Source: Maribacter sp. PR1 (GTDB lineage: Bacteria; Bacteroidota; Bacteroidia; Flavobacteriales; Flavobacteriaceae). Taken from it: DNA of 64,000 nt. The notes under the pieces were generated by a model that saw only the letters and a program-made list of their open reading frames with translations, was not told where the DNA came from and did no database searches. A program made the position numbers and the translations under genes. How positions within the stretch are numbered: the first letter of the stretch is position 1; every line of letters begins with the position of its first letter. Shown piece by piece: positions 1,577 through 21,095 of the stretch. The stretch spans positions 124,001 to 188,000 of the forward strand of contig NZ_JAQPCG010000005.1 of NCBI RefSeq assembly GCF_028464145.1. Reading direction: 5' to 3'.

Positions 1577-1620
1577 CGAAGGTATTCCGTAAGGTATTAA
1601 AGCCAAGTAACCCCTGTTAC
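1577..1620 (-). promoter_or_regulatory. Crp/Fnr-type operator and -7 box of cydAB
   Basis: A perfect inverted repeat GTAAC-CCCT-GTTAC lies at 1607-1620. After 22 nt comes a -7 box TACCTTCG (1577-1584, minus strand), putting the start about 16 nt before the cydA ATG. The spacing is identical to that of the other operators in this region. Confidence 0.85.
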
Positions 1621-1642
1621 ACAAAATTGAAAAAATGAATTT

Positions 1643-2971
1643 TTAAGTGAATTTTTTGACATCTTCACTTAGGTCAAAAATGATTGTATTGTTAAGTCCA
1701 CTTTCTAGAATACTACTTCCTGCCGCACTCCTGTAGCCACCTGCGCAATGCACTACAATAGGCTTTCCTGTAGGTATTTCATGCATGGTATTCCTTAATT
1801 CATTAAGAGGGTGTGTTATAGCTTGCTCAAAGAACTTTCCATCATTTATCTCACTTTGATTTCTAATATCAACAATGGTGTAATTTGATGGGTTATTCTT
1901 AAAATCACCTAGATTCAAATTGGCACTTTTAATTAAGCGTTCCTTACTCAAGGTAATAATGGATATTAATTGTGTTTCGTAACCAATCTTTGACACTCTT
2001 TCTAATAAATTATTCAAGTCATTTGGTTTATCAATAACCAAATGAAACCGCTCATTAGGTTCTACAATTGAGCCTAGCCAGGTTTCGAATTTATCGTTTT
2101 TGGAAGTTGCCTGGATATTGATACTTCCCGGCAGGTGGCCGTTTTTAAAATCGCCCTCATTTCTTGTATCAATAATTAAACCTTCAACGGTAGTATTCAA
2201 CTTAAACACAATATTTGACGTAGCCTTTCTTACATTTTCGGCACCTGATTTATTGATATCCACATTGTAACCAAAATAGGAAGGAATGAAGGGTTGACTG
2301 TCCAATAAAGTATTTACGAATTCTTCTTTTGTTTGATTTTTAAAGGCCCAGTTTCCTATTCTTTCGTTGCCAAGAGTACTACTTTTGTCAGAACTCATGT
2401 TTTTTCCGCACAAAGAACCAGCGCCATGTGCTGGGTAAACTAAGGCATCATCTGGTAAATGATTAAATTTATGCAGAATCGTATTGTACATCATTTCGGC
2501 AAGTTCCTGACGTTTTGCGGTCATTTTGCCAGCCTTTTCCCTAAGGTCCGGTCTACCAACATCACCTATGAATAAAGTGTCTCCTGTAAAAAGTACGGTC
2601 TGCTCATCTTCCTTGGCGACCACCGTAATGCTATCAGGTGAATGTCCAGGTGTATTTATTGCTGATACATCTATATTGCCTATAGAAAAACTATCACCCT
2701 CATCAAAAGTTTTATGTGGGTAGTCGGCACCAAGATTTTCACTGTTATAAATAGCGGCACCTGTTTCTTCGTGAATTTGGAGATGTGAACTAACAAAATC
2801 AGCATGTGGATGTGTTTCTATAACCGCAATTATTTTTGCGTTGTTTTCTATGGCAAACTCATAATATTCCAAAGGGCTACGTTCTGGGTCAATGATGGCC
2901 ATTTCTCCATCGCTTACTATAGCATATGAATAATGTGCTAAAGGTTTATATTCAAATTGTTTTATAATCAT
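1643..2971 (-). CDS. CstB-like persulfide dioxygenase-rhodanese fusion, paralogue 1
   Basis: The 442-residue protein has three parts. An N-terminal metallo-beta-lactamase domain (about 1-210) has a metal site H54-x-H56-x-D58, H110, D131 and H182. A central rhodanese-like domain (about 250-345) has no active-site cysteine, and a C-terminal rhodanese (about 355-440) has catalytic C409 in CAGGYRS. This order, plus C188 in a CGKNM motif beside the metal site, matches CstB, a non-haem iron enzyme that oxidises persulfides and makes thiosulfate. Unlike its two paralogues here it lacks an N-terminal Cys at position 10 and the C-terminal YVCPS segment. It lies downstream of the peroxiredoxin gene and has no promoter of its own that I can see. 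Substrate specificity is inferred from family membership. Confidence 0.85.
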   Translation of the reverse strand: MIIKQFEYKPLAHYSYAIVSDGEMAIIDPERSPLEYYEFAIENNAKIIAVIETHPHADFVSSHLQIHEETGAAIYNSENLGADYPHKTFDEGDSFSIGNIDVSAINTPGHSPDSITVVAKEDEQTVLFTGDTLFIGDVGRPDLREKAGKMTAKRQELAEMMYNTILHKFNHLPDDALVYPAHGAGSLCGKNMSSDKSSTLGNERIGNWAFKNQTKEEFVNTLLDSQPFIPSYFGYNVDINKSGAENVRKATSNIVFKLNTTVEGLIIDTRNEGDFKNGHLPGSINIQATSKNDKFETWLGSIVEPNERFHLVIDKPNDLNNLLERVSKIGYETQLISIITLSKERLIKSANLNLGDFKNNPSNYTIVDIRNQSEINDGKFFEQAITHPLNELRNTMHEIPTGKPIVVHCAGGYRSAAGSSILESGLNNTIIFDLSEDVKKFT

Positions 2972-2990
2972 AAAAGAATCGTTTTAAATG

Positions 2991-3018
2991 AATGGCATCT
3001 TTTTGTGAAGATGCCATT
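2991..3018 (-). terminator. Intercistronic stem-loop between prx and cstB-like 1
   Basis: A perfect 11-bp stem (2991-3001 paired with 3008-3018) with a 6-nt loop lies between the two genes. On the minus strand it is followed by CATTTAAAACG rather than a U-run. It may therefore be an mRNA-processing or stability hairpin, or a leaky terminator that sets the ratio of the two products. Confidence 0.55.
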
Positions 3019-3037
3019 CTTATTTCTAATTGTTAAT

Positions 3038-3703
3038 TTAAATATTCTTTTTGGCCAGATACCAAGTAATTTTTTCAATAGAATCGTCTTCCAACCTTTG
3101 GTTCAATTCATCCAAGGTTTTTGGCGGTGGCACTATAGCTTTATCCCCTTTTTTCCAATCCAAGGGCATAGCCACTTTGAATTTATCTGAAGTTTGTAAA
3201 GCTTCCAATGCCCTGAGAATTTCGTTCAAATTACGTCCTACGTTTAAAGGGTAGTACATGATTAGGCGAATCTTCTTTTCTGGGTCGATAAAGAATACGG
3301 CACGTACTGCTGCTGTCTCACTTTCATTAGGTTGAAGCATGCCATAAAGTTTGGATACTTTCATGTCCAAGTCCGCAATGATTGGGAAATCGAAGTATAC
3401 TCCAGTGTTCTCACGTACGTTTTGTACCCAACCTAAATGTGCATGTATACTATCAATACTAAGTCCCAACAATTCTGTATTCAAGGCATCAAACTCTTTT
3501 TTCCTTGTGGCGAACCCACTCATTTCAGTGGTACAAACCGGTGTAAAATCTGCCGGGTGCGAAAACATGACAATCCATTTGTCTTTTGCGAAATTAGAAA
3601 GTTTAATTTTACCTTTTGTAGTTACTGCTTCAAAATCTGGAGCATTATCGCCAATTCTTGGCATTGTAATCAATTTTTCAGATATGATATTTTCATGATT
3701 CAT
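3038..3703 (-). CDS. 1-Cys peroxiredoxin (Prx6/AhpE-like)
   Basis: This 221-residue thiol peroxidase reduces H2O2, organic peroxides and possibly persulfides. The peroxidatic Cys is C57 in the active-site motif ADFTPVCTTE, with T54 upstream. It is the only cysteine in the protein, and the long C-terminal half of Prx6-type enzymes is present (RAVFFIDPEKKIR, then a dimerisation region). The chosen ATG is about 31 nt downstream of a Crp/Fnr-type promoter, and a second possible start (MPRIG, residue 14) fits the core domain equally well. It heads a likely two-gene operon with a CstB-like persulfide dioxygenase, suggesting a role in thiol or persulfide homeostasis during sulfide oxidation (inference). 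Confidence 0.92.
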   Translation of the reverse strand: MNHENIISEKLITMPRIGDNAPDFEAVTTKGKIKLSNFAKDKWIVMFSHPADFTPVCTTEMSGFATRKKEFDALNTELLGLSIDSIHAHLGWVQNVRENTGVYFDFPIIADLDMKVSKLYGMLQPNESETAAVRAVFFIDPEKKIRLIMYYPLNVGRNLNEILRALEALQTSDKFKVAMPLDWKKGDKAIVPPPKTLDELNQRLEDDSIEKITWYLAKKNI

Positions 3704-3737
3704 AATAGATATTATTTATTTATTTATTAATATTTAA

Positions 3738-3781
3738 TAAAATTAATCTATCTAATATCTGGAAAATGTAACTTGGGTTAC
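3738..3781 (-). promoter_or_regulatory. Crp/Fnr-type operator and -7 box of prx-cstB1
   Basis: The operator GTAAC-TTGG-GTTAC (3768-3781) is followed after 22 nt on the minus strand by the -7 box TAATTTTA (3738-3745). The predicted start lies about 31 nt upstream of the peroxiredoxin ATG. Confidence 0.8.
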
Positions 3782-3906
3782 ACTGATATCATTTTTAACA
3801 GTTGTTAACAAGGACTATGGTTGTTTGCTATTGGGTAAGCTATAAAAACTCTCTTTAAAATAATGGACTGGTATTGTAATAGAAAGTAGTCTATTTATTT
3901 CATTAT

Positions 3907-3950
3907 GTGACCAAAGTCACAATTTTCGTCATTTATTGGATTTATTTTTG
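3907..3950 (+). promoter_or_regulatory. Crp/Fnr-type operator and -7 box of the copper-receptor operon
   Basis: The operator variant GTGAC-CAAA-GTCAC (3907-3920, perfect dyad) is followed after 22 nt by a perfect Bacteroidota -7 box TATTTTTG (3943-3950). The predicted transcription start falls on or next to the ATG at 3955, implying a leaderless mRNA. Confidence 0.82.
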
Positions 3951-3954
3951 CAAA

Positions 3955-4332
3955 ATGAAGTCGTTTAACGCTATCATATCCATACTATACATAACCATTA
4001 CCTTAGCCAGTAGTTTAAAAATTGCCGGCACAATGGGTTATTATGCCTTGTTTACGGAAGATTTTGTAGAACGATTTTGTGAGAATAAAACGAGACCGGA
4101 GTTGCAATGTAACGGTAAGTGTGTACTGTCCAAAATGTTGGCAAAAAAGGAACAGGAAGAACGTAAGCCTTTAAATTTGGATTGGCTAAGGACGGAGACC
4201 ATTCTTTTTTTGGATACCATGGATTCCGTAAGTTTTGAAACATTCCCCATTTATAAAATAAAACGTTTTCTTCATTCAGATTTTTACAGATTCCACTTAA
4301 TCAAAAAAATAATTATACCGCCTAAGCATTAG
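3955..4332 (+). CDS. Small membrane-anchored protein with CNGKC motif, upstream of copper receptor
   Basis: The 125-residue protein begins with one hydrophobic N-terminal segment (residues 1-28), an anchor or signal. It continues with a short extracytoplasmic part carrying FCEN and then CNGKC, three closely spaced cysteines that could bind metal or form a disulfide. A basic C-terminal tail follows. I do not recognise a named family. Similar small proteins occur next to TonB receptors in flavobacteria (recollection, not checked). The in-frame GTG further upstream is part of the operator and cannot be the start, so the ATG is used; it coincides with the predicted transcription start. An accessory role for the copper receptor 80 nt downstream is inferred. 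Confidence 0.7.
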   Translation: MKSFNAIISILYITITLASSLKIAGTMGYYALFTEDFVERFCENKTRPELQCNGKCVLSKMLAKKEQEERKPLNLDWLRTETILFLDTMDSVSFETFPIYKIKRFLHSDFYRFHLIKKIIIPPKH

Positions 4333-4412: not shown

Positions 4413-6710
4413 ATGAATCTAAAGTATTTTGGGTTACTAGGGGCGTTGCTTCTGGTCAACCTTGCTTATGCACAAAATTTTAAAGGAAAAATAGTATCCG
4501 AAATAAAGAACGAAGGCTTGTCCGGTGCCCATATTCAGGTTAAGGGTGGTTCACCTACCTACACGGATTCTCAAGGCAACTTTGAACTTCAAATCAATGA
4601 AAGCGGGCAGTTGTTGAAGGTATCCTTCATGGGGTTCGAGACCAAGGAACTGCTGGTATATCCTTCCTCGGAAACTACGATTATCTCCTTGAAGGAGTCA
4701 CCTATTCCTATTCAGGGAGTTCTAGTTACGGGTCAGTTCAAGGACGATCCTGTTCTTACTATGGAAACCTATGATTATGTGAAGAAAATCGTTCAACCTA
4801 GGAATGTGGCCGATCTATTTCAAGATATCAATGGATTTTCATTAATAAAAAGAGGCAACTATGCCATTGACCCTAGTTTTAGGGCTTCGCAGTACGAGCA
4901 ATTAAATGTTCAGTTTGATGGCGGCACCAAGGTAATGCATGCCTGTCCCAATAGAATGGACCCTATTACCACGCACGTCAATCCGGAAGAGATAGAAAAG
5001 ATTGAAATTATTAAAGGTCCATATACGGTGCGATATGGGGCTACTTTTGGAGGCATTGTGAATATGGTGACCCAAAAACCTTTGGACGGCGAATATGGCC
5101 TTAGCGGGCATGTAAATGCAGGGTATGAAAGTAATGGCAACTCAATGGTCTCCTCTGCCCAAGTCCAACAGGCTAATTCCAAATATGATATCAGGGGAAC
5201 TTTCGGGTTTAGGGATTTTGGGAATTATAAAGATGGTGACGGAACGGAAATACCCTCCTCTTTTAGAAGTCTGGAATACGGTGCAAGAGCTGGTTATAAT
5301 TTTAGTGGGAACCAAAGGTTACAGGCCAATTGGCGGCAATCCTATGGAAGGGATGTTTTGCATGCCGGTCTTCCCATGGATACCGATGAGGATAATAGCA
5401 GTATGTTGTCCCTGGATTATAGGTTGGCAGGACTTCAAGGTCTGGTAAAAAATATCACGGCCAAGGCGTATTATAGCTACGTGGACCATGTGATGTCCAA
5501 TACCAAAAGACCTACATTTATGATGACGGAAGCCATTTCTGAAATTGATGCAACCACTGCAGGAGGAAAGCTGGAGCTCAAGTTAGCGCCAAATGATAAA
5601 CTTTCTATTTATTCAGGGTTGGACTTTTTGAACATTGCTAGGGACGGGTTCCGTACACGATTGGTAAAAAGAAATATGATGGGACCTTTACCTAGTCCAA
5701 TGGAATTCGTGGATAAAGTATGGCAAGACTCCTATATCAACGACCTCGGTATTTTTGTAGAAACAAAATATCCCTTAAGCCCAAAGACGCTTTGGACATC
5801 TGGTATACGTTTCGATAATGTGACTTCGGAAATTAAAGATCCGGCGGATGATTTTCTGGCCTTATATCCAGATCTGGAAAAGCGAACCGAGCATAATATC
5901 AGTGCAACAACTTCCATAAAATATGCAACTTCAACAGAATTTATAATGGAAGTGGCCTATGGTAGGGGAGTTAGGTCCGCAAATATGATAGAACGGGTAA
6001 TCAATCATTTTACAGTAGGGCAGGATCCTTATGAATATATAGGAAACCCTAATTTAAAGGCAGAGGTTAACAATCAGTTTGAAATTGGGTTTAAGGGAAG
6101 AATAGCTTTATCGGATGTCAATAGCACCCGTTTCAACTATAGCACTTCATTCTATTACTCTTTATATGAGAACTATATCGTTCCGGTCATTGATAAATCC
6201 TTGACCCGAAAGTACATGCCAGCGAATGAACCGGTAAACCCCAAGGTCTTCCAAAATTTGGATGAATCCTATAAAACCGGGTTTGAAGTGATGGCGGGAT
6301 TTGATTTTTGGAATGGTTTCACTTTTAATACGGAAATGGCCTATGTGTATGCCAAGAACAAGGACTTGAACGAATCCTTGCCTTTGGTACCCCCATTGAT
6401 GAGCAGGTTTAAACTGGGTTACGAAGCGGAGAAATTTTGGGCAAATGCCAATTATACCATTACCTCCAGGCAAGAAAATATTGCACCCTCCTTTGGAGAG
6501 CAAGTAACGCCGGGTTATGAAGTAATGGATGTTCGTCTAGGCGTAAACCTGATCAAAAATGTCTCATTAGGAGTGGCAGTTTTGAATTTGTTTGATGTTA
6601 CCTATAACAATCACTTAAACTTTGCTTTTAACAATCAGGCTAATTTTAGTAGAACCCCTATTAACGACCCGGGAAGAAATTTTTCCGCTTTTATGCAGTA
6701 TAAATTTTAG
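4413..6710 (+). CDS. TonB-dependent copper receptor, OprC/NosA-like
   Basis: The 765-residue outer-membrane receptor has a signal peptide (1-20), a carboxypeptidase-regulatory-like domain (about 24-95), a plug (about 100-225) and a 22-strand-type barrel ending in a C-terminal Phe. The plug carries HACPNRMDP, that is C178-xxx-M182, and the barrel carries H359-x-M361. Together these reproduce the CxxxM plus HxM copper-binding site described for Pseudomonas OprC, so copper is the likely substrate. It is co-oriented with the CNGKC protein and probably transcribed from the same Crp/Fnr-type promoter. Placement in a sulfide regulon makes sense if copper is precipitated as sulfide and must be scavenged (inference). 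Confidence 0.88.
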   Translation: MNLKYFGLLGALLLVNLAYAQNFKGKIVSEIKNEGLSGAHIQVKGGSPTYTDSQGNFELQINESGQLLKVSFMGFETKELLVYPSSETTIISLKESPIPIQGVLVTGQFKDDPVLTMETYDYVKKIVQPRNVADLFQDINGFSLIKRGNYAIDPSFRASQYEQLNVQFDGGTKVMHACPNRMDPITTHVNPEEIEKIEIIKGPYTVRYGATFGGIVNMVTQKPLDGEYGLSGHVNAGYESNGNSMVSSAQVQQANSKYDIRGTFGFRDFGNYKDGDGTEIPSSFRSLEYGARAGYNFSGNQRLQANWRQSYGRDVLHAGLPMDTDEDNSSMLSLDYRLAGLQGLVKNITAKAYYSYVDHVMSNTKRPTFMMTEAISEIDATTAGGKLELKLAPNDKLSIYSGLDFLNIARDGFRTRLVKRNMMGPLPSPMEFVDKVWQDSYINDLGIFVETKYPLSPKTLWTSGIRFDNVTSEIKDPADDFLALYPDLEKRTEHNISATTSIKYATSTEFIMEVAYGRGVRSANMIERVINHFTVGQDPYEYIGNPNLKAEVNNQFEIGFKGRIALSDVNSTRFNYSTSFYYSLYENYIVPVIDKSLTRKYMPANEPVNPKVFQNLDESYKTGFEVMAGFDFWNGFTFNTEMAYVYAKNKDLNESLPLVPPLMSRFKLGYEAEKFWANANYTITSRQENIAPSFGEQVTPGYEVMDVRLGVNLIKNVSLGVAVLNLFDVTYNNHLNFAFNNQANFSRTPINDPGRNFSAFMQYKF

Positions 6711-6750: not shown

Positions 6751-6782
6751 AAAAGGGGACGATTTGATCAGTCCCCTTTTTT
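6751..6782. terminator. Bidirectional intrinsic terminator
   Basis: An A-rich GGGGAC/GTCCCC hairpin with flanking A- and T-runs lies between the convergent receptor and methyltransferase genes. It overlaps the 3' end of the methyltransferase gene and can serve both strands. Confidence 0.8.
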
Positions 6783-7364
6783 ACCTATAAACCGGATTAC
6801 TGAAGCTTCACCTACATGGTAGTGTCCTTCTGTCAATACGATATTTAACTCTTCTAAATAGGTAAATTGAATGCCTTTAAATTCCGTTTTGATTTCCTCT
6901 ATGGAAAAAAGCATATCCGTGTTTTTAGGTCCCCCCGAGGGTTTACCCATTTGTGATTTGGAAAAGGCCTCAAAAATGATGGTTCCCCCTGGCTTTAGAA
7001 ATGAAATAAGATGCTTATGTGCCCTTGCCCTAATTTCCTTGGGAAAGTGGACGTAGCTAAACCCTAGAACATCAAAACATGTTTCCGTGGTATATTCCAA
7101 AACGTCGGTTACCTGATAGTCAAGATTAAAACCATAGGGTTTAATAAGCAACTCCGCTTTCTTTTGAGCAGATGCACTATAATCGAAACAACTTACTTCC
7201 CAACCTTTTTGTAATGCGTAAAGCGCATTTCTACCTTCACCTTCTGCAGGCAGTAAAAGGGTACCTGGTTCCAAAAGGTCCAATTGCTTCTTAAGGAATT
7301 CGTTCGGTTGTTTTCCATAAGCGAATTCTTCTTCGGCATATCTTTGGTTCCAAAAATCCTTCAT
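6768..7364 (-). CDS. Class I SAM-dependent methyltransferase (TehB/thiopurine-like)
   Basis: The 198-residue Rossmann methyltransferase begins with FWNQRYAEEEFAYGKQPN, typical of the TehB/thiopurine S-methyltransferase-like group. Motif I is LLLPAEGEGRN (residues 37-47), and a second acidic residue lies in CFDYSASA. The acceptor is unknown; related enzymes methylate thiols, selenium or tellurium compounds. It starts 10 nt after the DsrE-like gene and is probably its operon partner, so thiol methylation under sulfide stress is a reasonable guess (inference). Confidence 0.82.
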   Translation of the reverse strand: MKDFWNQRYAEEEFAYGKQPNEFLKKQLDLLEPGTLLLPAEGEGRNALYALQKGWEVSCFDYSASAQKKAELLIKPYGFNLDYQVTDVLEYTTETCFDVLGFSYVHFPKEIRARAHKHLISFLKPGGTIIFEAFSKSQMGKPSGGPKNTDMLFSIEEIKTEFKGIQFTYLEELNIVLTEGHYHVGEASVIRFIGKKGD

Positions 7365-7374: not shown

Positions 7375-7902
7375 CTATGGCATCAAGGCATACCCTTTCA
7401 ACTGATAGTTGGATAAGACGGTCATGGCAGACAACGCTAATTCCGTATTGGGATTTAGGTCCTCAGCAGTAATATTTCGGGCAGCTGTGGCCTGGGAGCA
7501 GACATAGAGCTCCACACCATAGTCTTTTAAGAGACCCAACAACTCCGTATTGGGATTGGCCTTATCGTACTTTTTTTTATGTTTGGTGTCGTTCAATGTG
7601 GCAAAGGTAGCACCGCCATGAATGGCGGCTACAATATGTACGTTATCAGAAGGAATACCGGATGAGCCTAGCATATTTATAAGTCGGGCAATTTTCCACA
7701 AACCTTTGTTTACTCCGTCCATTTCTGACTCGCTGGTGATATCAAAAACCAATTTGTACTCCAAGGAAGCGTCGGGTTGAACCGCTACATCCTTAAAACT
7801 TTTAATTTTACCATACCCTTCTATAACCGGTGTTGTCCATTTTTGTGCCATGGAAAAACCCATACATAATAAAGATACTAATACGCTGATTCCAAATTTC
7901 AT
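7375..7902 (-). CDS. Exported DsrE/DsrF-family protein
   Basis: The 175-residue protein has a signal peptide (about 1-19, ending MAQ) followed by a DsrE-like alpha/beta domain. That domain carries the family motif HGGATFATL and a conserved Cys in ELYVCSQA. DsrE-type proteins carry or sense sulfane sulfur on this cysteine. I chose the ATG that yields a signal peptide; an upstream TTG gives a 10-residue extension but no better signal. The mRNA would have a leader of about 92 nt containing a 7-bp stem-loop (7946-7952 with 7972-7978). It is transcribed divergently from the TsdA-like gene from a shared operator. Confidence 0.85.
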   Translation of the reverse strand: MKFGISVLVSLLCMGFSMAQKWTTPVIEGYGKIKSFKDVAVQPDASLEYKLVFDITSESEMDGVNKGLWKIARLINMLGSSGIPSDNVHIVAAIHGGATFATLNDTKHKKKYDKANPNTELLGLLKDYGVELYVCSQATAARNITAEDLNPNTELALSAMTVLSNYQLKGYALMP

Positions 7903-7997
7903 GTGTCTTAAAACTTTTAAAGAATTTATCAATTAATCCAATCTGATTGGGAAAGTATCTATGATCTTCCGTCCCAATAATTTTTCAAGTAAGTTTA

Positions 7998-8071
7998 CGA
8001 AAATATACTTTCATTTTAGGTTTATTTGTAACAATTGTTACTGTATGGCATAGGCCCGAATATTATTTTCG
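7998..8071. promoter_or_regulatory. Symmetric bidirectional Crp/Fnr-type promoter, dsrE-like / tsdA-like
   Basis: One operator GTAAC-AATT-GTTAC (8028-8041, fully palindromic including the spacer) is flanked on both sides, after exactly 22 nt, by the same -7 box TATTTTCG. The boxes lie at 7998-8005 on minus and 8064-8071 on plus. A single bound dimer could activate both directions. Confidence 0.88.
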
Positions 8072-8100: not shown

Positions 8101-9141
8101 ATGAAGCATTTTGGATATTTGGTAAGACGTCTTTTTTGGTTGTTTCTAACCGTCCTTATCTTGGTTACGGTGCTTTTTATTACACTGTTGACGTATCGGC
8201 CCGCTCCATCCCCTAAAGAAGATACCCTTTTGGTTGAAGAAAAAATTGACGACTGGCAACCTAAAAACGTGCTGAAAGCTTGGGACGATGGAAGTATGTC
8301 TCCTAGCGTAAAGAAGGGATTTTTATTGGTTTCCGAAACTTCGGGTCAGATGGGGCCAAATGCTGAAGATCCAAACAATAGATTTGCGGGCAATAATCTA
8401 TCCTGTACCAATTGCCATTTGCAATATGGAATACAGGCGGGTTCTGGGTCATGGGTGGGGGTCGTGAAGCGATTTCCTCAATTTCGTGGTCGTGAAAATA
8501 GAATGGGCGATTTACAGGACCGTATCAATGGTTGTATGGAGCGAAGCATGAACGGAAAGAAATTACCTAAGGATTCTGAGGAGATAAAAGCAATCATAGC
8601 CTATATGGATTGGTTGGGGGAGGGGTTACCGAAAGAAAAGGAAAAGGAATACAAAGGCTATCCTAAAATTAAAATACCTGAAGTAAAGGTTGATTTGACC
8701 GTGGGTAAAGCGGTCTATGATAAGGAATGTGTGGTCTGTCATGGTGCGGACGGACAGGGCATAAAAAAACCTGATGCAACCAAAGGGTATTTGTATCCAC
8801 CTTTGTGGGGACCTGATAGTTTTAACAATGGGGCGGGGATGCATCGGGTCATAACTTCCGCAGAATTTATAAAAAGTAATATGCCTTTTGGATTGGCCAC
8901 CTACAAAAATCCAAAACTTACCGATGCCGAGGCGTATCATGTAGCGGGATACATCAATAGTTTTGATCGTCCCGTAAAGAGCAATACAAAGGAGGATTTT
9001 CCAGATAAGAAATTAAAGCCCGTTTCAACTTCTTATGGTCCTTGGCTGGACACTTTTTCCCAAGAACAGCACAAATACGGACCCTTTCCTCCAATAATAG
9101 CATATTACAAGGAGAAATATAATATTGAAAAGTCCAAATAA
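8101..9141 (+). CDS. tsdA: Dihaem cytochrome c, TsdA-like thiosulfate dehydrogenase
   Basis: The 346-residue protein has an N-terminal membrane anchor (11-31) and two c-type haem domains with CTNCH (C102-H106) and CVVCH (C210-H214). It shows the TsdA hallmarks: RFPQFRGREN, the INGCMERSMNG block with C145 as likely Cys ligand of haem 1, YLYPPLWGPDSF, and K258/M261 as likely distal ligand candidates of haem 2. TsdA interconverts thiosulfate and tetrathionate in the periplasm. A longer reading frame from a TTG at 8035 overlaps the operator, so the ATG after the predicted transcription start was used. The porin gene follows 6 nt later. The direction of catalysis cannot be read from sequence. Confidence 0.88.
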   Translation: MKHFGYLVRRLFWLFLTVLILVTVLFITLLTYRPAPSPKEDTLLVEEKIDDWQPKNVLKAWDDGSMSPSVKKGFLLVSETSGQMGPNAEDPNNRFAGNNLSCTNCHLQYGIQAGSGSWVGVVKRFPQFRGRENRMGDLQDRINGCMERSMNGKKLPKDSEEIKAIIAYMDWLGEGLPKEKEKEYKGYPKIKIPEVKVDLTVGKAVYDKECVVCHGADGQGIKKPDATKGYLYPPLWGPDSFNNGAGMHRVITSAEFIKSNMPFGLATYKNPKLTDAEAYHVAGYINSFDRPVKSNTKEDFPDKKLKPVSTSYGPWLDTFSQEQHKYGPFPPIIAYYKEKYNIEKSK

Positions 9142-12614: not shown

Positions 12615-12658
12615 TAAATATAGAATGTAATTTTTGCGAATAATGTAACATTGGTTAC
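12615..12658 (-). promoter_or_regulatory. Crp/Fnr-type operator and -7 box of sqr
   Basis: GTAAC-ATTG-GTTAC (12645-12658) is followed after 22 nt on the minus strand by TATATTTA (12615-12622). Confidence 0.83.
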
Positions 12659-12742: not shown

Positions 12743-12949
12743 CTATTGTTTTGTTTTGCAGGTATTCATTCCAAATAAGGTATATAAAGGACAAAAGCTT
12801 ATGAAGCTCGTTAATAAAAAGATTGCGGACAAGGCAAGTAATACATATGCCAAGGTTCCTTCTATGAAATTGAAGTAATACAAGGCTAAAACGGCTAAAG
12901 CAATAATAATTCGTACCGTTTTATCGGTACTTCCCATATTTTTTTTCAT
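12743..12949 (-). CDS. DUF2892 (YgaP-like) small membrane protein
   Basis: The 68-residue protein has two transmembrane helices after an MKKNMGSTDKTVR cytoplasmic start, the classic DUF2892 layout. FCPLYTLFGMNTC contributes two cysteines near the C-terminus. In other bacteria this domain is the membrane part of YgaP, fused to a rhodanese. Here it stands alone among rhodanese and persulfide genes. It may be driven by the minus-strand side of the operator at 13096-13109, where a poor -7 box TACCTTGT lies at the usual 22 nt. Confidence 0.85.
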   Translation of the reverse strand: MKKNMGSTDKTVRIIIALAVLALYYFNFIEGTLAYVLLALSAIFLLTSFISFCPLYTLFGMNTCKTKQ

Positions 12950-13095
12950 GATAATAAGTTTTATTGGTTAATACAATTTTTAGAAATTATTAGTGACATA
13001 ATTATCTTTCGGTCCATTTGACATAACTTTTTAGTGGCAATTCTAATTACTATAAAGTATCCTTTACAAGGTAAGCATATTGTCGCTTTTTTTAT

Positions 13096-13139
13096 GTAAC
13101 AAATGTTACGCTCTAATTTATCTCTAGAAACTATCTTTG
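13096..13139 (+). promoter_or_regulatory. Crp/Fnr-type operator and -7 box of desaturase-like gene
   Basis: GTAAC-AAAT-GTTAC (13096-13109) is followed after 22 nt by a perfect -7 box TATCTTTG (13132-13139). On the other side a weaker TACCTTGT (13066-13073, minus) has the same spacing and could serve the DUF2892 gene. Confidence 0.85.
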
Positions 13140-13160: not shown

Positions 13161-14042
13161 ATGGAATATTTAGAAGCTTTTTACAACTCCTTTGTTGGTA
13201 CCTTAAATTGGACTTGGAAGTCCATTATTTTTGAGGTGCCATGGTATACCAATTACTTTTGGGGACTCATTTTGATTTCCTTAGTGGTCTGGGGACTGGA
13301 AGTTCTTTTTCCTTGGCGTAAAAATCAAAAGGTTTTTAGAAAGGATTTTTGGCTGGATGCTTTTTATATGTTTTTCAATTTTTTCCTTTTTGCCATTGTT
13401 ATAAGCGGTGTATACAGGATACTTCAACTTTTTTTTGGCGACATAGGAATTACGGCCAAAAGCTTGGCTCTTATAGATTTTACTAAATGGCCTTCTTGGT
13501 CCCAATTATTGATTTTTTTCCTGATTTTGGATTTTGTCCAATGGTTCACCCATATTCTCCTGCATCGATATGAAATCTTATGGAACTTTCATAAGGTGCA
13601 TCATAGTGTAAAGGAAATGGGCTTCGCCGCTCATTTGCGATACCATTGGATGGAAAATATCCTATACAAACCCCTAAAGACTTTTGGCGTAATGATCTTG
13701 GGCGGTTTTGAGCCTGAACAAGCCTATATTGTTCACTTCTTGGCTATTGCCATCGGTCATTTCAACCATTCCAATATAAAGATTACCTGGGGCCCCTTGA
13801 AATATGTGTTGAATAACCCCGTCATGCACTTATACCACCATGCCTATGATTTACCCCAAGGTAAACGATATGGTGTAAATTTTGGAATAAGTTTAAGTCT
13901 TTGGGATTATATCTTTAGAACCAATTACGTTCCCGAGGAGAGTGGTACCATTACCTTAGGCTATCCTGGAGACGAAAACATGCCAACGGATTTTATAGGA
14001 CAGAATATTTCGGGATTTGGTCTTGGAAAGAAAAAATCCTAA
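13161..14042 (+). CDS. Sterol desaturase / fatty acid hydroxylase superfamily protein
   Basis: The 293-residue integral membrane di-iron enzyme has hydrophobic helices at about 32-50, 65-92 and 115-130. Histidine motifs are H131-xxx-H135, H144-xx-H147-H148, H200-xx-H203 and H223-xx-H226-H227, the set that binds the two irons. Family members hydroxylate or desaturate lipids using O2, but the lipid substrate here is unknown. The gene begins 18 nt after the predicted start of a Crp/Fnr-type promoter, so it belongs to the same regulon as the sulfur genes, which is unexpected for a lipid enzyme. Its stop overlaps the convergent gene by 4 nt. Confidence 0.88.
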   Translation: MEYLEAFYNSFVGTLNWTWKSIIFEVPWYTNYFWGLILISLVVWGLEVLFPWRKNQKVFRKDFWLDAFYMFFNFFLFAIVISGVYRILQLFFGDIGITAKSLALIDFTKWPSWSQLLIFFLILDFVQWFTHILLHRYEILWNFHKVHHSVKEMGFAAHLRYHWMENILYKPLKTFGVMILGGFEPEQAYIVHFLAIAIGHFNHSNIKITWGPLKYVLNNPVMHLYHHAYDLPQGKRYGVNFGISLSLWDYIFRTNYVPEESGTITLGYPGDENMPTDFIGQNISGFGLGKKKS

Positions 14043-15038
14043 CGGTCATTTTCACCTTCTAAAACAATGCTCCAAATACCCCTGACCTCATTGGCCGAAT
14101 AACCAATGGCTTCGTCTTCTGGATACCTTTCTTGGAGTATGGAGACGACCTCGGCACTAATATCATTTCCTTTTTTACCATGACATTTTAGGCACATATC
14201 ATTGGTTATTATAGGGTAATAGAAATTGGTCTTGTCACCTATTTCAATACTGATGGGTTCATAATCTTCCTTGGCTTTGTTTCTTTCCTTAAAATATGCG
14301 ATGTATTTCAACTCTTGGGTATTGGCGCGGTTCTTTGGATTTCTTGCCTTATCCGATACTCTCTTAATAGTAGCTCCATGTACGATGGCCATACTATCCG
14401 TTAATGGATATGCTTTTTCGTTACAGAACTTAAGTGCAGCGACCGGGCCTTCTTTTTGTATTTTCCCTCAATACCTTTTGGGTGCTCGAGGCCATTTCCA
14501 AACCTATTTCCTTGACCGATTTTGGAGAGGATTTGGACTTTGTATCAAAATCCTTTCCTTGTTGTTGATAATTACCTTTTCCGTGGCCTTTCTCCCAATG
14601 TTCTTTGAACCACTCCGGCTCTTCTACTTTAAATTCATAAATGTAATCCGATATGAGTCGTATCTCTTCTTCTGAGTAGGGTTGATAAGGCATTACACCA
14701 AATCGTTTAAGGGCTCCCTTCATTTTTCCTTTTTTAAGTGTTGGTTCTTTCACAAAATTCCAAACAGCGTCACCAAATTCCTGCTTGGTTGGATTTCCCA
14801 TGAAATACCTAGCTTTTATGGCCACCATAGGTGGTGCTATACGGGCATCCTCCTTGGCATCAGGACCGTGACAAACAAAGCACTTGGTTTCCATCAACTC
14901 TTTTCCTTTGGCAAGATTGTTATCTAAGGCTACCGGTGTTTCTTTGACATCTTCAATTTGTGCCTTTTCTGAGCTCGAGGAATTCTTACAGCTTACAGAT
15001 GCAAGCAGTAGTCCAAAAAGTAAAAAATGTTTTTTCAT
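14039..15038 (-). pseudogene. Dihaem cytochrome c-DUF3365 (Tll0287-like) fusion split by a +1 frameshift
   Basis: Two adjacent reading frames together make one protein. The first (to 14430) is a lipoprotein (LASVSC) with a cytochrome c domain, CFVCHG, a long charged linker and then the start of a DUF3365 domain (IGLEMASSTQKVL, ending at residue 190), after which it runs into an unrelated tail. The second frame continues the domain with GKIQKEGPVAALKFCNEKAYPLTDSMA and includes its haem site CLKCHG, but has no start codon at its true beginning. Deleting one base near 14468 (TTG-A-GGG) joins them into about 332 residues, and the total span of 1000 nt is 3n+1. Either a sequencing error, a real lesion or recoding is possible. 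It overlaps the HMA gene by 4 nt in the rhodanese operon. Confidence 0.8.
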
Positions 15039-15307
15039 GATTTTCCCATTTTCCCACTAGCGCAGCTAACAAAAGATTTTATCTTGGACATTGTTGTATT
15101 CTCCATATCCATTGATGGGTAACCAATATGCTTAAGCTTATCTTTGACTAAAATAGCATCATCAAAATCTTTGTATTCAAAGGACACCGAAGATGCTTCA
15201 ATATCTACTTGAATATTGGAAACATGCTCAATATCGGAAATTTTACTGATAATGGTTTTTACACACCCACCACATTTAAGGTTTTGAACAATTAGCGTTG
15301 CTTTCAT
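15035..15307 (-). CDS. Heavy-metal-associated (HMA) domain protein
   Basis: The 90-residue single HMA fold carries the metal-binding motif KCGGCVKTI early in the chain and alternating beta-alpha-beta segments after it. It ends in a short tail with SCASGK. HMA domains bind Cu(I) or other soft metals. I chose the ATG giving MKATLIVQNLKCGGC; earlier in-frame ATGs lie inside the end of the rhodanese gene. It overlaps the cytochrome gene by 4 nt (ATGA type), indicating translational coupling. Confidence 0.82.
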   Translation of the reverse strand: MKATLIVQNLKCGGCVKTIISKISDIEHVSNIQVDIEASSVSFEYKDFDDAILVKDKLKHIGYPSMDMENTTMSKIKSFVSCASGKMGKS

Positions 15308-15330
15308 ATCAAACATTTTATGTATAAGAT

Positions 15331-15675
15331 TCAATTCCAACTAACATATCCTCCCTGTAAGTCATAAATTTCAGAAAAACCCATTCCCGCAAGTTTACGT
15401 GCTGCTTTTTGGCTTCGGGCTCCGGACCGACAATACAAATAAATGGGTTGACTTTTATCCAATTTCTCAAAGGAAATTTGGAAATTGGATGCATTAAAAA
15501 AGTCGATATTGATGGCCTTTTTTATGTGTCCGCTATTATATTCGGATGGGGTCCTAACATCTACAAGTTGTACTTTTTTGGAAGCGATTGCTTCGGCATA
15601 TTCTTGTTTGTTCAAAATGACAATAGTATCAGTCGTTGAAATTTTAGAACCAAAGAGTGAGCTTAGAAATGACAT
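15331..15675 (-). CDS. Single-domain rhodanese sulfurtransferase
   Basis: The 114-residue rhodanese has the CH2A-like motif VDVRTPSEY, then SGHIKKAINIDF, and an active-site loop with Cys in YCRSGARS. Single-domain rhodaneses accept sulfane sulfur as a cysteine persulfide. It is the first gene of an operon rhodanese-HMA-cytochrome. Unlike most genes in the regulon it has a long leader (about 149 nt) containing a strong hairpin. Confidence 0.9.
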   Translation of the reverse strand: MSFLSSLFGSKISTTDTIVILNKQEYAEAIASKKVQLVDVRTPSEYNSGHIKKAINIDFFNASNFQISFEKLDKSQPIYLYCRSGARSQKAARKLAGMGFSEIYDLQGGYVSWN

Positions 15676-15827: not shown

Positions 15828-15871
15828 TAAAGGTATGCCTATCAAAAGATAAGTTCAGTAACCCGAGTTAC
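15828..15871 (-). promoter_or_regulatory. Crp/Fnr-type operator and -7 box of the rhodanese operon
   Basis: GTAAC-CCGA-GTTAC (15858-15871) is followed after 22 nt on the minus strand by TACCTTTA (15828-15835). Confidence 0.82.
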
Positions 15872-17458: not shown

Positions 17459-17502
17459 CAAAACTACTAATAGTAATTTACTAAATTGGTAACAAAGGTT
17501 AC
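17459..17502 (-). promoter_or_regulatory. Crp/Fnr-type operator and -7 box of CstB-like 2
   Basis: GTAAC-AAAG-GTTAC (17489-17502) is followed after 22 nt on the minus strand by a perfect -7 box TAGTTTTG (17459-17466). Confidence 0.86.
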
Positions 17503-17563: not shown

Positions 17564-18979
17564 CTATAACATAGTTGAAGGACAGACATATTCCGATTTA
17601 GGTAATTCTGTCTTAGAAAGATCTTCAAAACCACCTTTTACGTCGGCAAAATCTTGCCAACCACGTTGCTTTAAAATTGAAGAAGCAATCATGCTTCTAT
17701 ACCCACCTGCACAGTGTAAAACAAAAGTGCTGTCTTTGGGAAACTTTGCCAGGTGCTGATTAATTTCATTCAGAGGAATATTTATTGCACCTAAAAGATG
17801 CTCCGAATCAAATTCACTTTTTTTGCGAACATCGATTATCAGGGGTTTTTCATCTTTCATGGCTTCTTCTAACTCATTGGCTGAAACACGATTTGCTGTT
17901 TCAAATTCCTTTCCGGAGTTTTTCCAAGCATCAAAACCTCCATTTAGAAAACCAACCGTTTTGTCGTAACCTACTCGGGATAATCTAGTTATGGCCTCTT
18001 CTTCCTTGTCCTTATAGGTTACCAATAGGATTTCCTGTTTTATGTCCGGTATCATTTCTCCCACCCATTGTGCAAAACTACCTTCTAGCCCTATATTGAT
18101 ACTGTTCGGAATAAATCCTTTTGCAAAATCTTCGGCATTTCTGGTATCCAATACCAAAGCTCCTGTTTCGTTTGCTACCGCTTCAAATGCTTCGGGTGAG
18201 TAGGGGGTAGTTGCCTTAGCCATGATATCGTCCAAACTTTCATATCCTTTAATGTTCATTAAAACATTTTTAGGAAAATATCCAGGAGGCGTGGTTAAAC
18301 CAGTTAGTAATTCTTTTATAAACTCTTCTTTGGTCATATCCGGTCTTAAGGCATAATTCACTTCTTTTTGATGTCCTAAAGTATCTGTGGTTTCTTTGCT
18401 CATCATTTTACCACAGGCAGATCCTGCACCGTGATTTGGATAAACGATTAAGTCATCGCTTAAGGGCATAATTTTATTTCTAAGCGAATCGAATAAGTGG
18501 CCCGCTAATTTTTCCTCGGTTAATTCCGATATCACATGTTGAGCCAAATCTGGTCTACCAACATCGCCTATAAATAAGGTGTCACCGGTAATGATACCGT
18601 GCTCCTTGCCCTGTTCATCAATTAGAAGATAAGTGGTGCTTTCCATCGTGTGCCCAGGTGTGTGTATCACTTTAACCTTATAATCGCCTACCTCAAAGAT
18701 TTGTCCATCCTCAGCGGTAGTCGCTTCATAGGCGGGTTTAGCTCCCGGACCGAAAACAATTTCAGCTCCTGCTTTTTTTTGTAAATCTAGATGGCCACTC
18801 ACAAAATCTGCATGAAAATGCGTTTCAAAGACATACTTAATCTTGGCATTATCTTTTTTTGCTCGATCTATATAGGGTTGTACTTCCCGGAGCGGGTCAA
18901 AAACCGCTGCAATTCCTTTACTCTCAATGTAATATGCGGCGTGCGCCAAGCAGCCTGTATAAATTTGTTCAACTTTCAT
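17564..18979 (-). CDS. CstB-like persulfide dioxygenase-rhodanese fusion, paralogue 3
   Basis: The 471-residue protein begins, like paralogue 2, with MKVEQIYTGC. Metal ligands are H54-x-H56-x-D58, H110, D133 and H183, with C189 in the ACGKMM motif next to the metal site. The second domain is a rhodanese without cysteine, and the third has catalytic C423 in CAGGYRS. C466 lies in the terminal YVCPS segment. High similarity along the whole length and head-to-tail placement indicate tandem duplication with paralogue 2. It has its own operator and a leader of about 25 nt. Persulfide dioxygenase activity is inferred from the CstB family. Confidence 0.88.
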   Translation of the reverse strand: MKVEQIYTGCLAHAAYYIESKGIAAVFDPLREVQPYIDRAKKDNAKIKYVFETHFHADFVSGHLDLQKKAGAEIVFGPGAKPAYEATTAEDGQIFEVGDYKVKVIHTPGHTMESTTYLLIDEQGKEHGIITGDTLFIGDVGRPDLAQHVISELTEEKLAGHLFDSLRNKIMPLSDDLIVYPNHGAGSACGKMMSKETTDTLGHQKEVNYALRPDMTKEEFIKELLTGLTTPPGYFPKNVLMNIKGYESLDDIMAKATTPYSPEAFEAVANETGALVLDTRNAEDFAKGFIPNSINIGLEGSFAQWVGEMIPDIKQEILLVTYKDKEEEAITRLSRVGYDKTVGFLNGGFDAWKNSGKEFETANRVSANELEEAMKDEKPLIIDVRKKSEFDSEHLLGAINIPLNEINQHLAKFPKDSTFVLHCAGGYRSMIASSILKQRGWQDFADVKGGFEDLSKTELPKSEYVCPSTML

Positions 18980-19007
18980 GGTGTATACTTTTTATTGGTT
19001 CACTCCT

Positions 19008-19051
19008 TAAAAATAAGAACCAAATTATGGTCCTACAGTGACTAAGGTTAC
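19008..19051 (-). promoter_or_regulatory. Crp/Fnr-type operator and -7 box of CstB-like 3
   Basis: GTGAC-TAAG-GTTAC (19038-19051, one half-site variant) is followed after 22 nt on the minus strand by TATTTTTA (19008-19015). Confidence 0.82.
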
Positions 19052-19117
19052 ACAAAACAGCAAAAAATAAAAATGAGCTTTTAAAGATTGGTTTTTTCCC
19101 AGATGCGAAAATCGTAA

Positions 19118-19930
19118 TTAATGGGATATAAAAAACTCCATGTAAAATATAAAGACGGCCATGACCAATATGAAATACCCAAAGCCTTTTTTTAGCTTTT
19201 CACCATTAATATAATTACTGGCATAGCTTCCAATAAATATGCCCAAGAAAGAAAGTGAAGTAAATATTAATAAAAATTGCCAGTCGATATCCATGGTAAA
19301 TGCATCGCCCAAGAAAAAACCCATTAAAGACTTTATGGCAATAATAATAAGCGAAGTTCCTACGGCTACTTTCATTTCCACATTTGCCAGAATAACCAGC
19401 GCTGGAATAATTAAAAATCCTCCACCAGCACCAATTAAGCCTGTAATACCACCAACAAGTAAACCTTCAACAAGAATAAGTGGGTAATTGTACCTGACTT
19501 CTCCACCTGATTTTCCTAAGGCTTCCGTTTTATTTTTAAGCATGGAGAATGCAGCAGGAATCATTAAAAACGCAAAGAGGCCAAACATGCCCATGCGGCG
19601 GGTAAATTCGAAATCTCCAATTTGAAACAGGACATCTGGTAATATGGGTACCAAATAATGTCTAACCAATGTCACCCCTATGATTGCAGGTACTCCAAAA
19701 ACAATGGCAGTGCGCCAATCCACATAGCCTTTTAAGTGTTGTTTCCAACCCCCGACCAAAGCGCTTGCACCTACTATGAACAATGAATAAGCTGTAGCTA
19801 CTTTTTCATTAACCGAAAATAAATAAGCTAGGACCGGTACGGCCAGGATAGATCCACCTCCACCAATAAGGCCTAGGGATATTCCTATAATCAATGCACT
19901 TATAAAGCCAAAAATGTGGAGAACTTCCAT
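19118..19930 (-). CDS. TauE/SafE-family sulfite/organosulfur exporter
   Basis: The 270-residue inner-membrane protein has about eight hydrophobic helices. It carries the duplicated TauE/SafE signature: GLIGGGGSILAVPVL near residue 20 and GLIGAGGGFLIIPAL near residue 165. Family members export sulfite, sulfoacetate and related anions. TauE homologues accompany cstB and sqr in staphylococcal cst operons, so export of sulfite or thiosulfate produced by the CstB-like enzymes is the likely role (inference). The gene starts 18 nt after the predicted start of its own Crp/Fnr-type promoter. Confidence 0.9.
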   Translation of the reverse strand: MEVLHIFGFISALIIGISLGLIGGGGSILAVPVLAYLFSVNEKVATAYSLFIVGASALVGGWKQHLKGYVDWRTAIVFGVPAIIGVTLVRHYLVPILPDVLFQIGDFEFTRRMGMFGLFAFLMIPAAFSMLKNKTEALGKSGGEVRYNYPLILVEGLLVGGITGLIGAGGGFLIIPALVILANVEMKVAVGTSLIIIAIKSLMGFFLGDAFTMDIDWQFLLIFTSLSFLGIFIGSYASNYINGEKLKKGFGYFILVMAVFIFYMEFFISH

Positions 19931-19951
19931 GTAATGTTACATTTAATGGTG

Positions 19952-19995
19952 CGAAGCTATAGCACCATTTGAAGCTAGGCAGTAACATTAGTTAC
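19952..19995 (-). promoter_or_regulatory. Crp/Fnr-type operator and -7 box of the tauE-like gene
   Basis: GTAAC-ATTA-GTTAC (19982-19995) is followed after 22 nt on the minus strand by TAGCTTCG (19952-19959). The operator lies only 6 nt beyond the stop of the regulator gene. Confidence 0.82.
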
Positions 19996-20001
19996 AAAGG
20001 A

Positions 20002-20634
20002 TTACAAATCCAATATTTTTATATAATTACGATGTAATTCTATAGCCCCCATTTGCTCTAATTTTTTAAGAAGCCTAGATATCACTACCCTAGAACTATG
20101 AAGTTCATATGCGATTTCTTGATGCGTATTATGAATTACATTCCCTTTATTTATTCTGGCTTTTTCTTTTAGGTAGCTAATAAGCCGGGCGTCCATTTTA
20201 TCAAAAGCAATACTGTCCAAAGTGCTCAAAAGCTCGTTCAATCGTTCATGGTAGCTGTTAAAGACAAAATTTCGCCAGGATTTATATTTTACGGTCCATT
20301 CTTCCATTTTTTGCATGGGGACCATAATCAATTTACTGTCAGTTTCAGTAATAGCCCGGATTTCGCTTTTGGAATCCCCCATACAGCAAGCTAAAGTCAT
20401 GGAGCAGGTATCACCCTTTTCCAAATAATAGAGTAGAAGTTCGTCCCCGTCATTATCATCCCGTAATATTTTTATTGCTCCCGATATTAGAAGGGGCATA
20501 CCTTTTATATAATCTCCGATTTCAATTAATTTATAACCTTCAGGAACTTCTTTATATGTTCCAACCTGGGCAATTTCAGTAATAAGATCCTTCTCAAAAA
20601 TATTACCATAACTCTCTGTAAGTTCCTGTATCAT
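20002..20634 (-). CDS. Crp/Fnr-family transcription regulator
   Basis: The 210-residue protein has an N-terminal cyclic-nucleotide-binding-type beta roll (about 15-110), a dimerisation helix (about 112-145) and a winged helix-turn-helix (about 148-208). The recognition helix reads SSRVVISRLLKKLE. It keeps the two arginines of Crp/Fnr recognition helices, but the usual Glu is Val, which predicts a non-canonical half-site. There is no N-terminal FNR-type Fe-S cysteine cluster. The only cysteines are C77, C83 and C84 in CSMTLACCM, inside the sensor domain. It is transcribed with the DUF983 gene from a promoter carrying GTAAC-N4-GTTAC, so autoregulation is likely. It is the obvious candidate for binding all such operators in this region (inference). 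Confidence 0.9.
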   Translation of the reverse strand: MIQELTESYGNIFEKDLITEIAQVGTYKEVPEGYKLIEIGDYIKGMPLLISGAIKILRDDNDGDELLLYYLEKGDTCSMTLACCMGDSKSEIRAITETDSKLIMVPMQKMEEWTVKYKSWRNFVFNSYHERLNELLSTLDSIAFDKMDARLISYLKEKARINKGNVIHNTHQEIAYELHSSRVVISRLLKKLEQMGAIELHRNYIKILDL

Positions 20635-20643
20635 AGTATATTA

Positions 20644-21033
20644 TTATTTGACCTTTTCCGCTATTTCCTTGTCATATTGAAAGAAAAAATTGGCCCAAAT
20701 AGATTTTGATATTGCGGCGATCCAAGGCATGGCCAAAACCAATACCCCTACAATCAATCCAAATAGACCTAAAATACTAAGGTCTACACCGAAAATTAAA
20801 GTAAGCATGTAAACCGCAACCGCAACCGCAACCCCTACACCATAAGAGACATACATGCTACCATAATAAAAACTGGGCTCAATGCTATATTTTAAGTTAC
20901 ATTTCGGACAACGTTCCTTTACCTTATTGAAGTTACTTAATTTATAGGGATTTGCCTCCAGGAATTCACCTTCATGACATCTTGGGCATTTTAAAAACAG
21001 AATACTATATAACTTGGAACCTTTGCCGAACAT
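20644..21033 (-). CDS. DUF983 zinc-ribbon membrane protein
   Basis: The 129-residue protein starts with a zinc-ribbon-like part, CPRCHEGEF and CPKCNLKY (four cysteines). Two transmembrane helices (about 58-80 and 85-108) and a short basic tail follow. This is the DUF983 architecture, whose function is unknown; homologues are sometimes found near cytochrome oxidase genes. It is the first gene of the operon with the Crp/Fnr regulator, 9 nt upstream of it, and its ATG lies about 15 nt after the predicted transcription start. Confidence 0.85.
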   Translation of the reverse strand: MFGKGSKLYSILFLKCPRCHEGEFLEANPYKLSNFNKVKERCPKCNLKYSIEPSFYYGSMYVSYGVGVAVAVAVYMLTLIFGVDLSILGLFGLIVGVLVLAMPWIAAISKSIWANFFFQYDKEIAEKVK

Positions 21034-21051
21034 ACCTTAAAAAATTTGCAA

Positions 21052-21095
21052 CAAAAATATAATAACTTAATGGTTAAATCGGTAACAATGGTTAC
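21052..21095 (-). promoter_or_regulatory. Crp/Fnr-type operator and -7 box of DUF983-crp/fnr operon
   Basis: GTAAC-AATG-GTTAC (21082-21095) is followed after 22 nt on the minus strand by a perfect -7 box TATTTTTG (21052-21059). This is the autoregulatory site if the local regulator is the binder. Confidence 0.87.

Follow-up and report, generated by a model that had tools for sequence, protein, structure and literature searches.

The window analysed here is a stretch of 64,000 nucleotides (nt), positions 124,001-188,000 of contig NZ_JAQPCG010000005.1 from Maribacter sp. PR1 (labelled C19 in the genome scans below), and feature coordinates are window positions. One part of it carries genes for cytochrome bd, sulfide:quinone oxidoreductase (SQR), CstB-like MBL-rhodanese proteins, a TsdA-like thiosulfate dehydrogenase, a TauE/SafE protein and a CRP/FNR-family regulator. 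The units to which these genes belong are preceded by a palindromic operator, GTAAC-N4-GTTAC or a GTGAC variant of it, and a promoter box, TAnnTT, starts 22 nt past every one of the 11 operators on the gene-facing side.

An earlier note on this DNA, made from the letters alone, had described these operators, and all 11 were located on the sequence at the left ends it gave, nine of them exact and two GTGAC variants. When both directions of each operator were considered, TAnnTT was present at offset 22 in 13 of 22 directions, compared with 0 to 2 at each other offset from 0 to 60 and a background of 0.015 per direction and offset. The probability of at least 12 of 22, multiplied by 61 offsets, is 5e-15, which bears out the note's judgement that so constant a spacing is hard to obtain by chance. 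All 12 of the promoters that it had counted at 22 nt are correct, but the total is 13, as the divergent minus side of operator 13096, with the box TACCTTGT reading into a 68-amino-acid (aa) open reading frame (ORF), had been missed; operators 8028 and 13096 both have a box on each side. The box had been called TAnnTTTG-like. TAnnTT at 22 nt holds, but the full TAnnTTTG is found in only four of the 12 boxes originally claimed, the others being TAnnTTCG (four) and TAnnTTTA (four). A joint scan of the remaining window (operator with at most two mismatches, box TAnnTT[TC][GA]) gave no further site, as expected from the note's remark that the element had gone unnoticed in the other 43 kb. The original observation is correct and stronger than first claimed.

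Table 1. Operators, boxes at 22 nt and the genes behind them in the window
Operator	Half-sites or sequence	Box (strand)	Genes	Remarks
1607..1620	GTAACCCCTGTTAC	1577-1584 (-) TACCTTCG	cydA 202-1557 (PF01654), then cydB (PF02322) upstream of the window	operon by position
3768..3781		3738-3745 (-) TAATTTTA	peroxiredoxin 3038-3703, MBL-rhodanese 1643-2971	operon by position
3907..3920	GTGAC/GTCAC variant, GTGACCAAAGTCAC	3943-3950 (+) TATTTTTG	small ORF 3955-4332, TonB receptor 4413-6710	no Pfam match for the small ORF
8028..8041		8064-8071 (+) TATTTTCG	TsdA-like 8101-9141, porin 9148-10485	divergent
8028..8041		7998-8005 (-) TATTTTCG	DsrE 7375-7932, methyltransferase 6768-7364	divergent
12645..12658		12615-12622 (-) TATATTTA	SQR 11282-12589	
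13096..13109		13132-13139 (+) TATCTTTG	fatty acid hydroxylase 13161-14042	divergent
13096..13109		13066-13073 (-) TACCTTGT	YgaP-like predicted transmembrane protein, 68 aa, 12743..12949 (-)	divergent; PF11127 match is to its L035 relative, window copy unscanned
15858..15871		15828-15835 (-) TACCTTTA	rhodanese 15331-15675, HMA 15035-15340, cytochrome c 14430-15038	
17489..17502		17459-17466 (-) TAGTTTTG	MBL-rhodanese-rhodanese 16025-17434	matches 3tp9/3r2u
19038..19051	GTGAC/GTTAC variant	19008-19015 (-) TATTTTTA	MBL-rhodanese-rhodanese 17564-18979	
19982..19995		19952-19959 (-) TAGCTTCG	TauE/SafE 19118-19930	
21082..21095		21052-21059 (-) TATTTTTG	DUF983 20644-21033, then CRP/FNR-family regulator, 210 aa, 20002..20634 (-)	autoregulation; recognition helix S181-R-V-V-I-S-R187; Cys only at 77, 83 and 84

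In the whole genome of Maribacter sp. PR1 (4.73 Mb, 23 contigs), the exact palindrome occurs 15 times, compared with 14 for a reversed control pattern, and therefore the palindrome alone means little. This near equality would suit a chance clustering of the palindrome in AT-rich intergenic DNA. However, it is the clustering and the box geometry, not the raw count, that stand out. Eleven of the 15 exact palindromes lie within 34.4 kb (P 4e-21, for a stretch picked after the fact), and 14 of the 22 GTRACN4GTYAC sites in the genome have the box at 22 nt, 13 of these inside 28 kb. The scan of the genome with the joint pattern, which the earlier note had proposed, thus found that pattern confined to one contig: the 11 sites of the window plus C19:117052, C19:122978 and C19:346112. 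None of the seven GTRACN4GTYAC sites on other contigs has a box at 22 nt. The palindromes C20:122895 and C1:253506 fall in terminator-like hairpins, as judged by eye.

A scan of genomes with the regulator yielded 77 loci, totalling 1.41 Mb, with search seeds that included the peptide EKGDTCSM. These loci hold 267 exact operators, whereas the 59 alternative arrangements of those five letters yield no more than 16 copies each (median about 1), and TAnnTT is present at offset 22 in 273 of 534 directions, with 0 to 28 at other offsets. Counted by operator, 252 of 267 have the box at 22, on one side in 231 and on both sides in 21. After removal of operators whose 114-nt context was at least 65% identical, 149 of the 161 that were left had the box at 22 (other offsets: mean, 4.65; maximum, 13), and the full TAnnTTTG was there in 70 and at no more than one operator at any other offset. 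The 22 spacer letters carry <0.1 bit each save the first three and are thus mostly unconserved, and therefore it is the distance itself that is conserved. At positions that played no part in selecting the sites, 156 nonredundant promoters favour a T at -1 (0.89), a T at -3 (0.76) and a G at +15 (0.58); with the first T of the box set at -12, this G falls at -33. With GTRAC/GTYAC counted, 73 of the 77 loci contain one or more joint promoters, and these 73 span 22 genus names (counted by eye) among the Flavobacteriales and relatives of Sphingobacterium; the regulon with a fixed operator-promoter spacing that had been proposed from the window therefore recurs among relatives. A comparable island occurs in Empedobacter tilapiae (L168, G150:C12:50000-68000), where 10 of the genome's 19 palindromes sit between 50 and 83 kb of a single contig.

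The joint pattern also follows the regulator gene. In six regulator-bearing genomes, 44 of the 72 exact palindromes examined (of 73) have the box at 22. No box at 22 was found at any of the 25 palindromes of 11 same-order genomes that lack a regulator match at E<=1e-30, some of whose assemblies are 90-99% complete, nor at any of the 28 palindromes of five genomes that carry just a paralogue of 41-42% identity (Fisher, 9e-15 for 44/72 versus 0/53 in the 16 genomes pooled). A similar frequency of the pattern elsewhere, which the earlier note had named as the outcome that would speak against a regulon, was thus not seen at the 53 sites of genomes in which the regulator was not found. The density of palindromes per Mb was also higher with an orthologue than with none, at 1.82 versus 0.82 in family f1 (16 and 12 genomes; p 0.0002) and 2.64 versus 0.63 in family f10 (5 and 13 genomes; p 0.002), for an orthologue cut-off (at least 200 bits) that was fixed with the data already in view, and for two of 15 families and 46 of 146 genomes, a selection that has to be set against the result. 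The reversed control pattern had no orthologue-linked density difference in f1 and f10. Together, the window offsets, the 149 of 161 nonredundant sites and the dependence on the regulator refute chance clustering, which retains a negligible probability.

It might still be asked whether the operator is bound by another Crp/Fnr paralogue, with the local protein a passenger. There were 10 candidates in the Maribacter genome at first look, but only a single match at E<=1e-30. The joint pattern is missing at all 53 sites in the genomes without a found orthologue, and a joint promoter lies before the orthologue's own unit in 44 cases (DUF983 with the regulator, 32; the regulator, 12), so that a passenger role is very improbable. 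Autoregulation, co-occurrence and comparison of the recognition helix support well the identification of the local Crp/Fnr protein as the probable regulator.

The 77 loci have 305 joint promoters, and the genes behind them were sorted by their best match to window proteins. Besides the regulator's own unit, these were MBL-rhodanese proteins of three types (43, 25 and 2 promoters), SQR (34 promoters in 34 loci), TauE (33 in 33), fatty acid hydroxylase (16), peroxiredoxin (10), rhodanese (8), TsdA (6), cydA (6), DsrE (4), the small ORF (2) and HMA (1); 46 fell under 'other', and for 25 no ORF had been called. Seven of the 46 were scanned and gave a SulP permease, a sulfite-oxidase-type molybdoenzyme, HemN, an outer-membrane efflux protein, TetR, DinB and a YgaP-like protein. 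In the window, the CstB-like protein matches 3tp9 and 3r2u, the latter of which we take to be CstB; SQR matches mitochondrial sulfide:quinone oxidoreductase entries (6mp5, E 6.8e-107), and the TsdA-like protein matches the thiosulfate dehydrogenase 4wqc (E 1.5e-47). At the level of Pfam, the copper receptor and the di-iron enzyme of the earlier note are a TonB receptor and a fatty acid hydroxylase, respectively. From what is established for these enzyme families, the set would together convert sulfide to persulfide, thiosulfate and sulfite, with the products exported or tapped. Cytochrome bd is sulfide-tolerant.

The regulon extends upstream of the window, where C19:117052 and C19:122978 have boxes at 22 nt. 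Judged by position, C19:122978 (operator GTGAC/GTCAC) heads an operon in which a YgaV-like ArsR regulator comes first, with genes for OsmC, an ArsP-type permease, an FmdE-domain protein and a flavoprotein after it, and C19:117052 precedes a pair encoding outer-membrane efflux and HlyD proteins plus an unscanned ORF of 1077 aa. The YgaV-like ArsR regulator (L098:18131-18436) has a Cys-Cys pair and is possibly a second sulfide sensor under the first. C19:110660 precedes two Sulf_transp (YeeE/YedE-like) genes in a presumed operon, again by position, including the YeeE-like L098:5552-6112. The joint site C19:346112 (L099:1513-1907), 200 kb off on the same contig, stands ahead of a cobalamin riboswitch (RF00174, 103 bits) and a TonB receptor. 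A peptide pattern of the YgaP-like protein matched 17 loci, and in 10 of these a joint promoter lies no more than 700 nt upstream. Only 4 nt separate the end of the box at 3943-3950 from the in-frame ATG at 3955, so that the predicted transcript would be nearly leaderless.

The regulator matches PF00027 (34.4 bits) and PF13545 (40.3 bits), both above the cut-offs, giving a cNMP-binding (cyclic nucleotide) domain followed by HTH_Crp, and it belongs to the CRP/FNR superfamily. Foldseek matched it to 4ev0 (E 2.7e-14); many matches had a high root mean square deviation, so these matches place the protein at superfamily level only. Several specific identities were rejected. It fits neither the cyclic AMP (cAMP)-activated CRP (NCBIfam CRP, 49.6 versus a cut-off of 266) nor NtcA (NCBIfam NtcA, 38.5 versus 244.95), and its segment 76-86, TCSMTLACCMG, has no Gly-Glu of the cAMP cassette as in Vfr. 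The [4Fe-4S] cluster of FNR has four Cys ligands, three of them N-terminal. As the only Cys residues of the regulator are 77, 83 and 84, with none N-terminal, an FNR-type four-Cys cluster is absent, and an FNR identity was rejected as well.

The recognition helix aligns with the 'STRVTVTR' of NtcA, and R182, V183 and R187 are invariant in 33 aligned relatives (of 78 sequences). In CRP, substitutions of Glu181 shift the base preference of the half-site. GTAAC-N4-GTTAC is GTA-N8-TAC and, with the conserved flanking T, TGTAA-N6-TTACA, which is the CRP frame with A for G. In the available part of the published account, the base contacts of CRP are Arg180, Glu181 and Arg185 (PMC12531629), which correspond to R182, V183 and R187. 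About 2 kb around each of 40 homologues from a profile search was examined, 28 with V183 and 12 with E183. A 22-nt joint promoter was found near nine of the V183 and none of the E183 regulators (p 0.037). Other perfect 5-N4-5 palindromes 22 nt before a box gave one match near the 12 E183 homologues. Ten further V183 stretches hold the operator without TAnnTT at 22. Six of these (L203, L212, L213, L214, L215 and L216) keep TTTG in register with the TA changed, as noticed post hoc, and L212, L213, L215 and L216, at 47-50% identity, have TTnnTTTG in the 22-nt register. The V183 stretches L204 and L217 have an operator with neither TTTG in register nor a box at 21.

Cys77, Cys83 and Cys84 lie where the alignment places Vfr's cyclic-nucleotide cassette. 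Among the 77 loci, Cys77 is present in 77, Cys83 in 76 and Cys84 in 77, the count for Cys77 being partly ascertained because the search seeds included EKGDTCSM; among the 40 homologues found by profile, Cys77 is present in all 40. The E183 homologues L226, L227, L228 and L230 keep C-x5-C-C, and the roughly 2 kb examined around each contains no GTRACN4GTYAC site; these homologues may read the same signal via another operator.

We consider it about 65% probable that the 13 promoters at 22 nt form one regulon and that the local CRP/FNR protein is a class II activator of sulfide detoxification that senses reactive sulfur. In this model, the regulator dimer would bind TGTAAC-N4-GTTACA, with its centre near -41.5 and over the place of the -33 box, and would contact RNA polymerase as at class II promoters. 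V183, at the position of Glu181 in CRP, would determine that the fourth base of the TGTAA half-site is A. Persulfide or polysulfide would modify Cys77, often together with Cys83/84, in a segment that would be the counterpart of the one holding the cAMP phosphate in CRP. The regulator would then feed back on its own unit and turn on SQR, the CstB-like enzymes, sulfur exporters and cytochrome bd. The parts of the model differ in strength: comparison across relatives brings the regulon and its probable class II geometry close to established, action by activation rather than repression is likely, and reactive-sulfur sensing through Cys77 is what we infer from the sequences.

Promoters of Bacteroidota have a -7/-33 consensus. 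Given this consensus, the fixed operator letters would leave no space for a full -33 box, which argues against the alternative that the -41 site works by repression relieved by the signal. Such repression would resemble that by CstR, BigR and YgaV (at ygaVP), all described as repressors in the portions of the literature consulted (PMC9774590, PMC7315123, PMC9774250). However, -41.5 is, in the accessible text, the position of canonical NtcA-activated class II promoters (PMC3898017), and repression is improbable.

A more serious question is the signal. The same regulon and the same class II activation could respond to low oxygen, nitric oxide (NO) or general redox state, in the manner of FNR, DNR or HcpR, as sulfide appears where oxygen falls. 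The operator is shared by cydAB and, in L030, by a HemN-type gene lying divergently behind the regulator's own operator, and the fold search placed FNR, DNR and HcpR of P. gingivalis among the CRP-like matches. In L036 and L041, an unscanned gene for 453 aa occupies the place of the L030 HemN-type gene. However, the three Cys, confined to 77-84, make no FNR-type cluster, and the named targets are mostly SQR, CstB-like, TauE and rhodanese proteins. Cytochrome bd also fits a sulfide signal because sulfide raises cydAB in E. coli, according to the part of the source seen (PMC9774250). A low-oxygen, NO or redox signal thus seems unlikely, though it keeps an appreciable share of the probability.

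Several observations weigh against activation by reactive sulfur at a fixed spacing. Fifteen of the 267 operators in the 77 loci have no box at 22, four loci (L080, L086, L088 and L093) have no joint promoter, and the box is missing at 28 of the 72 operators of regulator genomes, two of them (9545 and 13240) inside the regulator locus L046. On contig C19, the box TATATTTG at C19:110660 stands at 23 nt, the lone exception to 22 among 15 sites. Two V183 homologues at 47-50% identity (L210 and L219) have TAnnTTTG at 21 nt; the claim of exactly 22 therefore holds in the window and in close relatives but not in these distant ones, where the spacing relaxes by one. The apparent V183/E183 contrast is weak, and it may not be absolute, since one E183 homologue, L218, combines a GTGAC/GTTAC operator with the box TACCTTTG at 23. 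Cys83 and Cys84 are not universal (35 and 30 of the 40 homologues), and in G024 and G014 W/E replace them with the joint promoter still present; because of this variation, the idea that all three Cys are essential was dropped. In the AlphaFold model (mean pLDDT, 84.3; pTM, 0.63), the Cys loop 78-86 has a pLDDT of <50 and is unresolved. Finally, cydA and HemN also count among the classical targets of the oxygen type.

If the preferred reading is right, a fixed and scannable promoter code would predict anti-sulfide genes in Flavobacteriales and relatives of Sphingobacterium, together with a candidate regulator protein. The class II geometry of Bacteroidota promoters would become sharply defined, with numerous natural examples, and V/E 183 would be a specificity position open to single-substitution testing.

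Among the closest known systems is NtcA, whose class II promoters are described, in the text available, as GTAN8TAC centred at about -41.5 with a -10 box TAN3T (PMC3898017). On that partial account, the regulon shares the GTAN8TAC operator, a box of the TAN3T type and, as predicted, the centre near -41.5, and the regulator an R-V-x-x-x-R recognition helix. It differs from NtcA in identity (at most 23% among the fold matches listed), in having sulfur rather than nitrogen targets and in having Cys at the site expected for the ligand cassette. E. coli CRP has the same fold and the 16-bp frame TGTNA-N6-TNACA, and its class II centre-to-box distance equals that of the regulon; however, the half-site is TGTAA rather than TGTGA, and the regulator has Val in place of Glu181. 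The Eubacterium rectale Crp/Fnr protein 3dv8 is the best PDB sequence match (E 1e-14) and has Cys at the C77 and C83 positions, but Glu, not Val, at the position of CRP Glu181. HcpR and PgRsp are likewise CRP/FNR-superfamily proteins of Bacteroidota, with HcpR 9day among the fold matches, but are set apart by their published descriptions as far as these were available, HcpR by haem, NO and hcp (PMC12750200) and PgRsp by haem binding and redox (PMC6955866). The material consulted, which did not extend to a comparison of their own operators, linked neither protein to the operator described here.

Close in function are FisR, CstR and SqrR/BigR/YgaV, which, in the excerpts consulted, also control sulfide/persulfide oxidation and sulfur-transfer genes and use Cys (PMC9774590, PMC7315123); FisR senses the same kind of signal via three Cys (PMC9774590). 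These are a sigma-54 activator, a CsoR-type and ArsR-type regulators, respectively, and not CRP proteins. Among the literature matches listed (open-licence PMC, seen in part), there was no Crp/Fnr sulfide regulator of Bacteroidota, and the dedicated sulfide/persulfide sensors described there are of the CsoR, ArsR and sigma-54 types, in Proteobacteria and Firmicutes (PMC7315123, PMC9774590, PMC9774250). We tentatively suggest, at somewhat less than even odds, that the Maribacter regulator may represent a fourth dedicated architecture for sensing reactive sulfur, in which a CRP fold, with its cNMP cassette turned into a cysteine trap, would itself switch on sulfide-detoxification genes through class II contact at the -7 promoters of Bacteroidota, and a V/E183 operator code would split off sister regulators that keep the trap.

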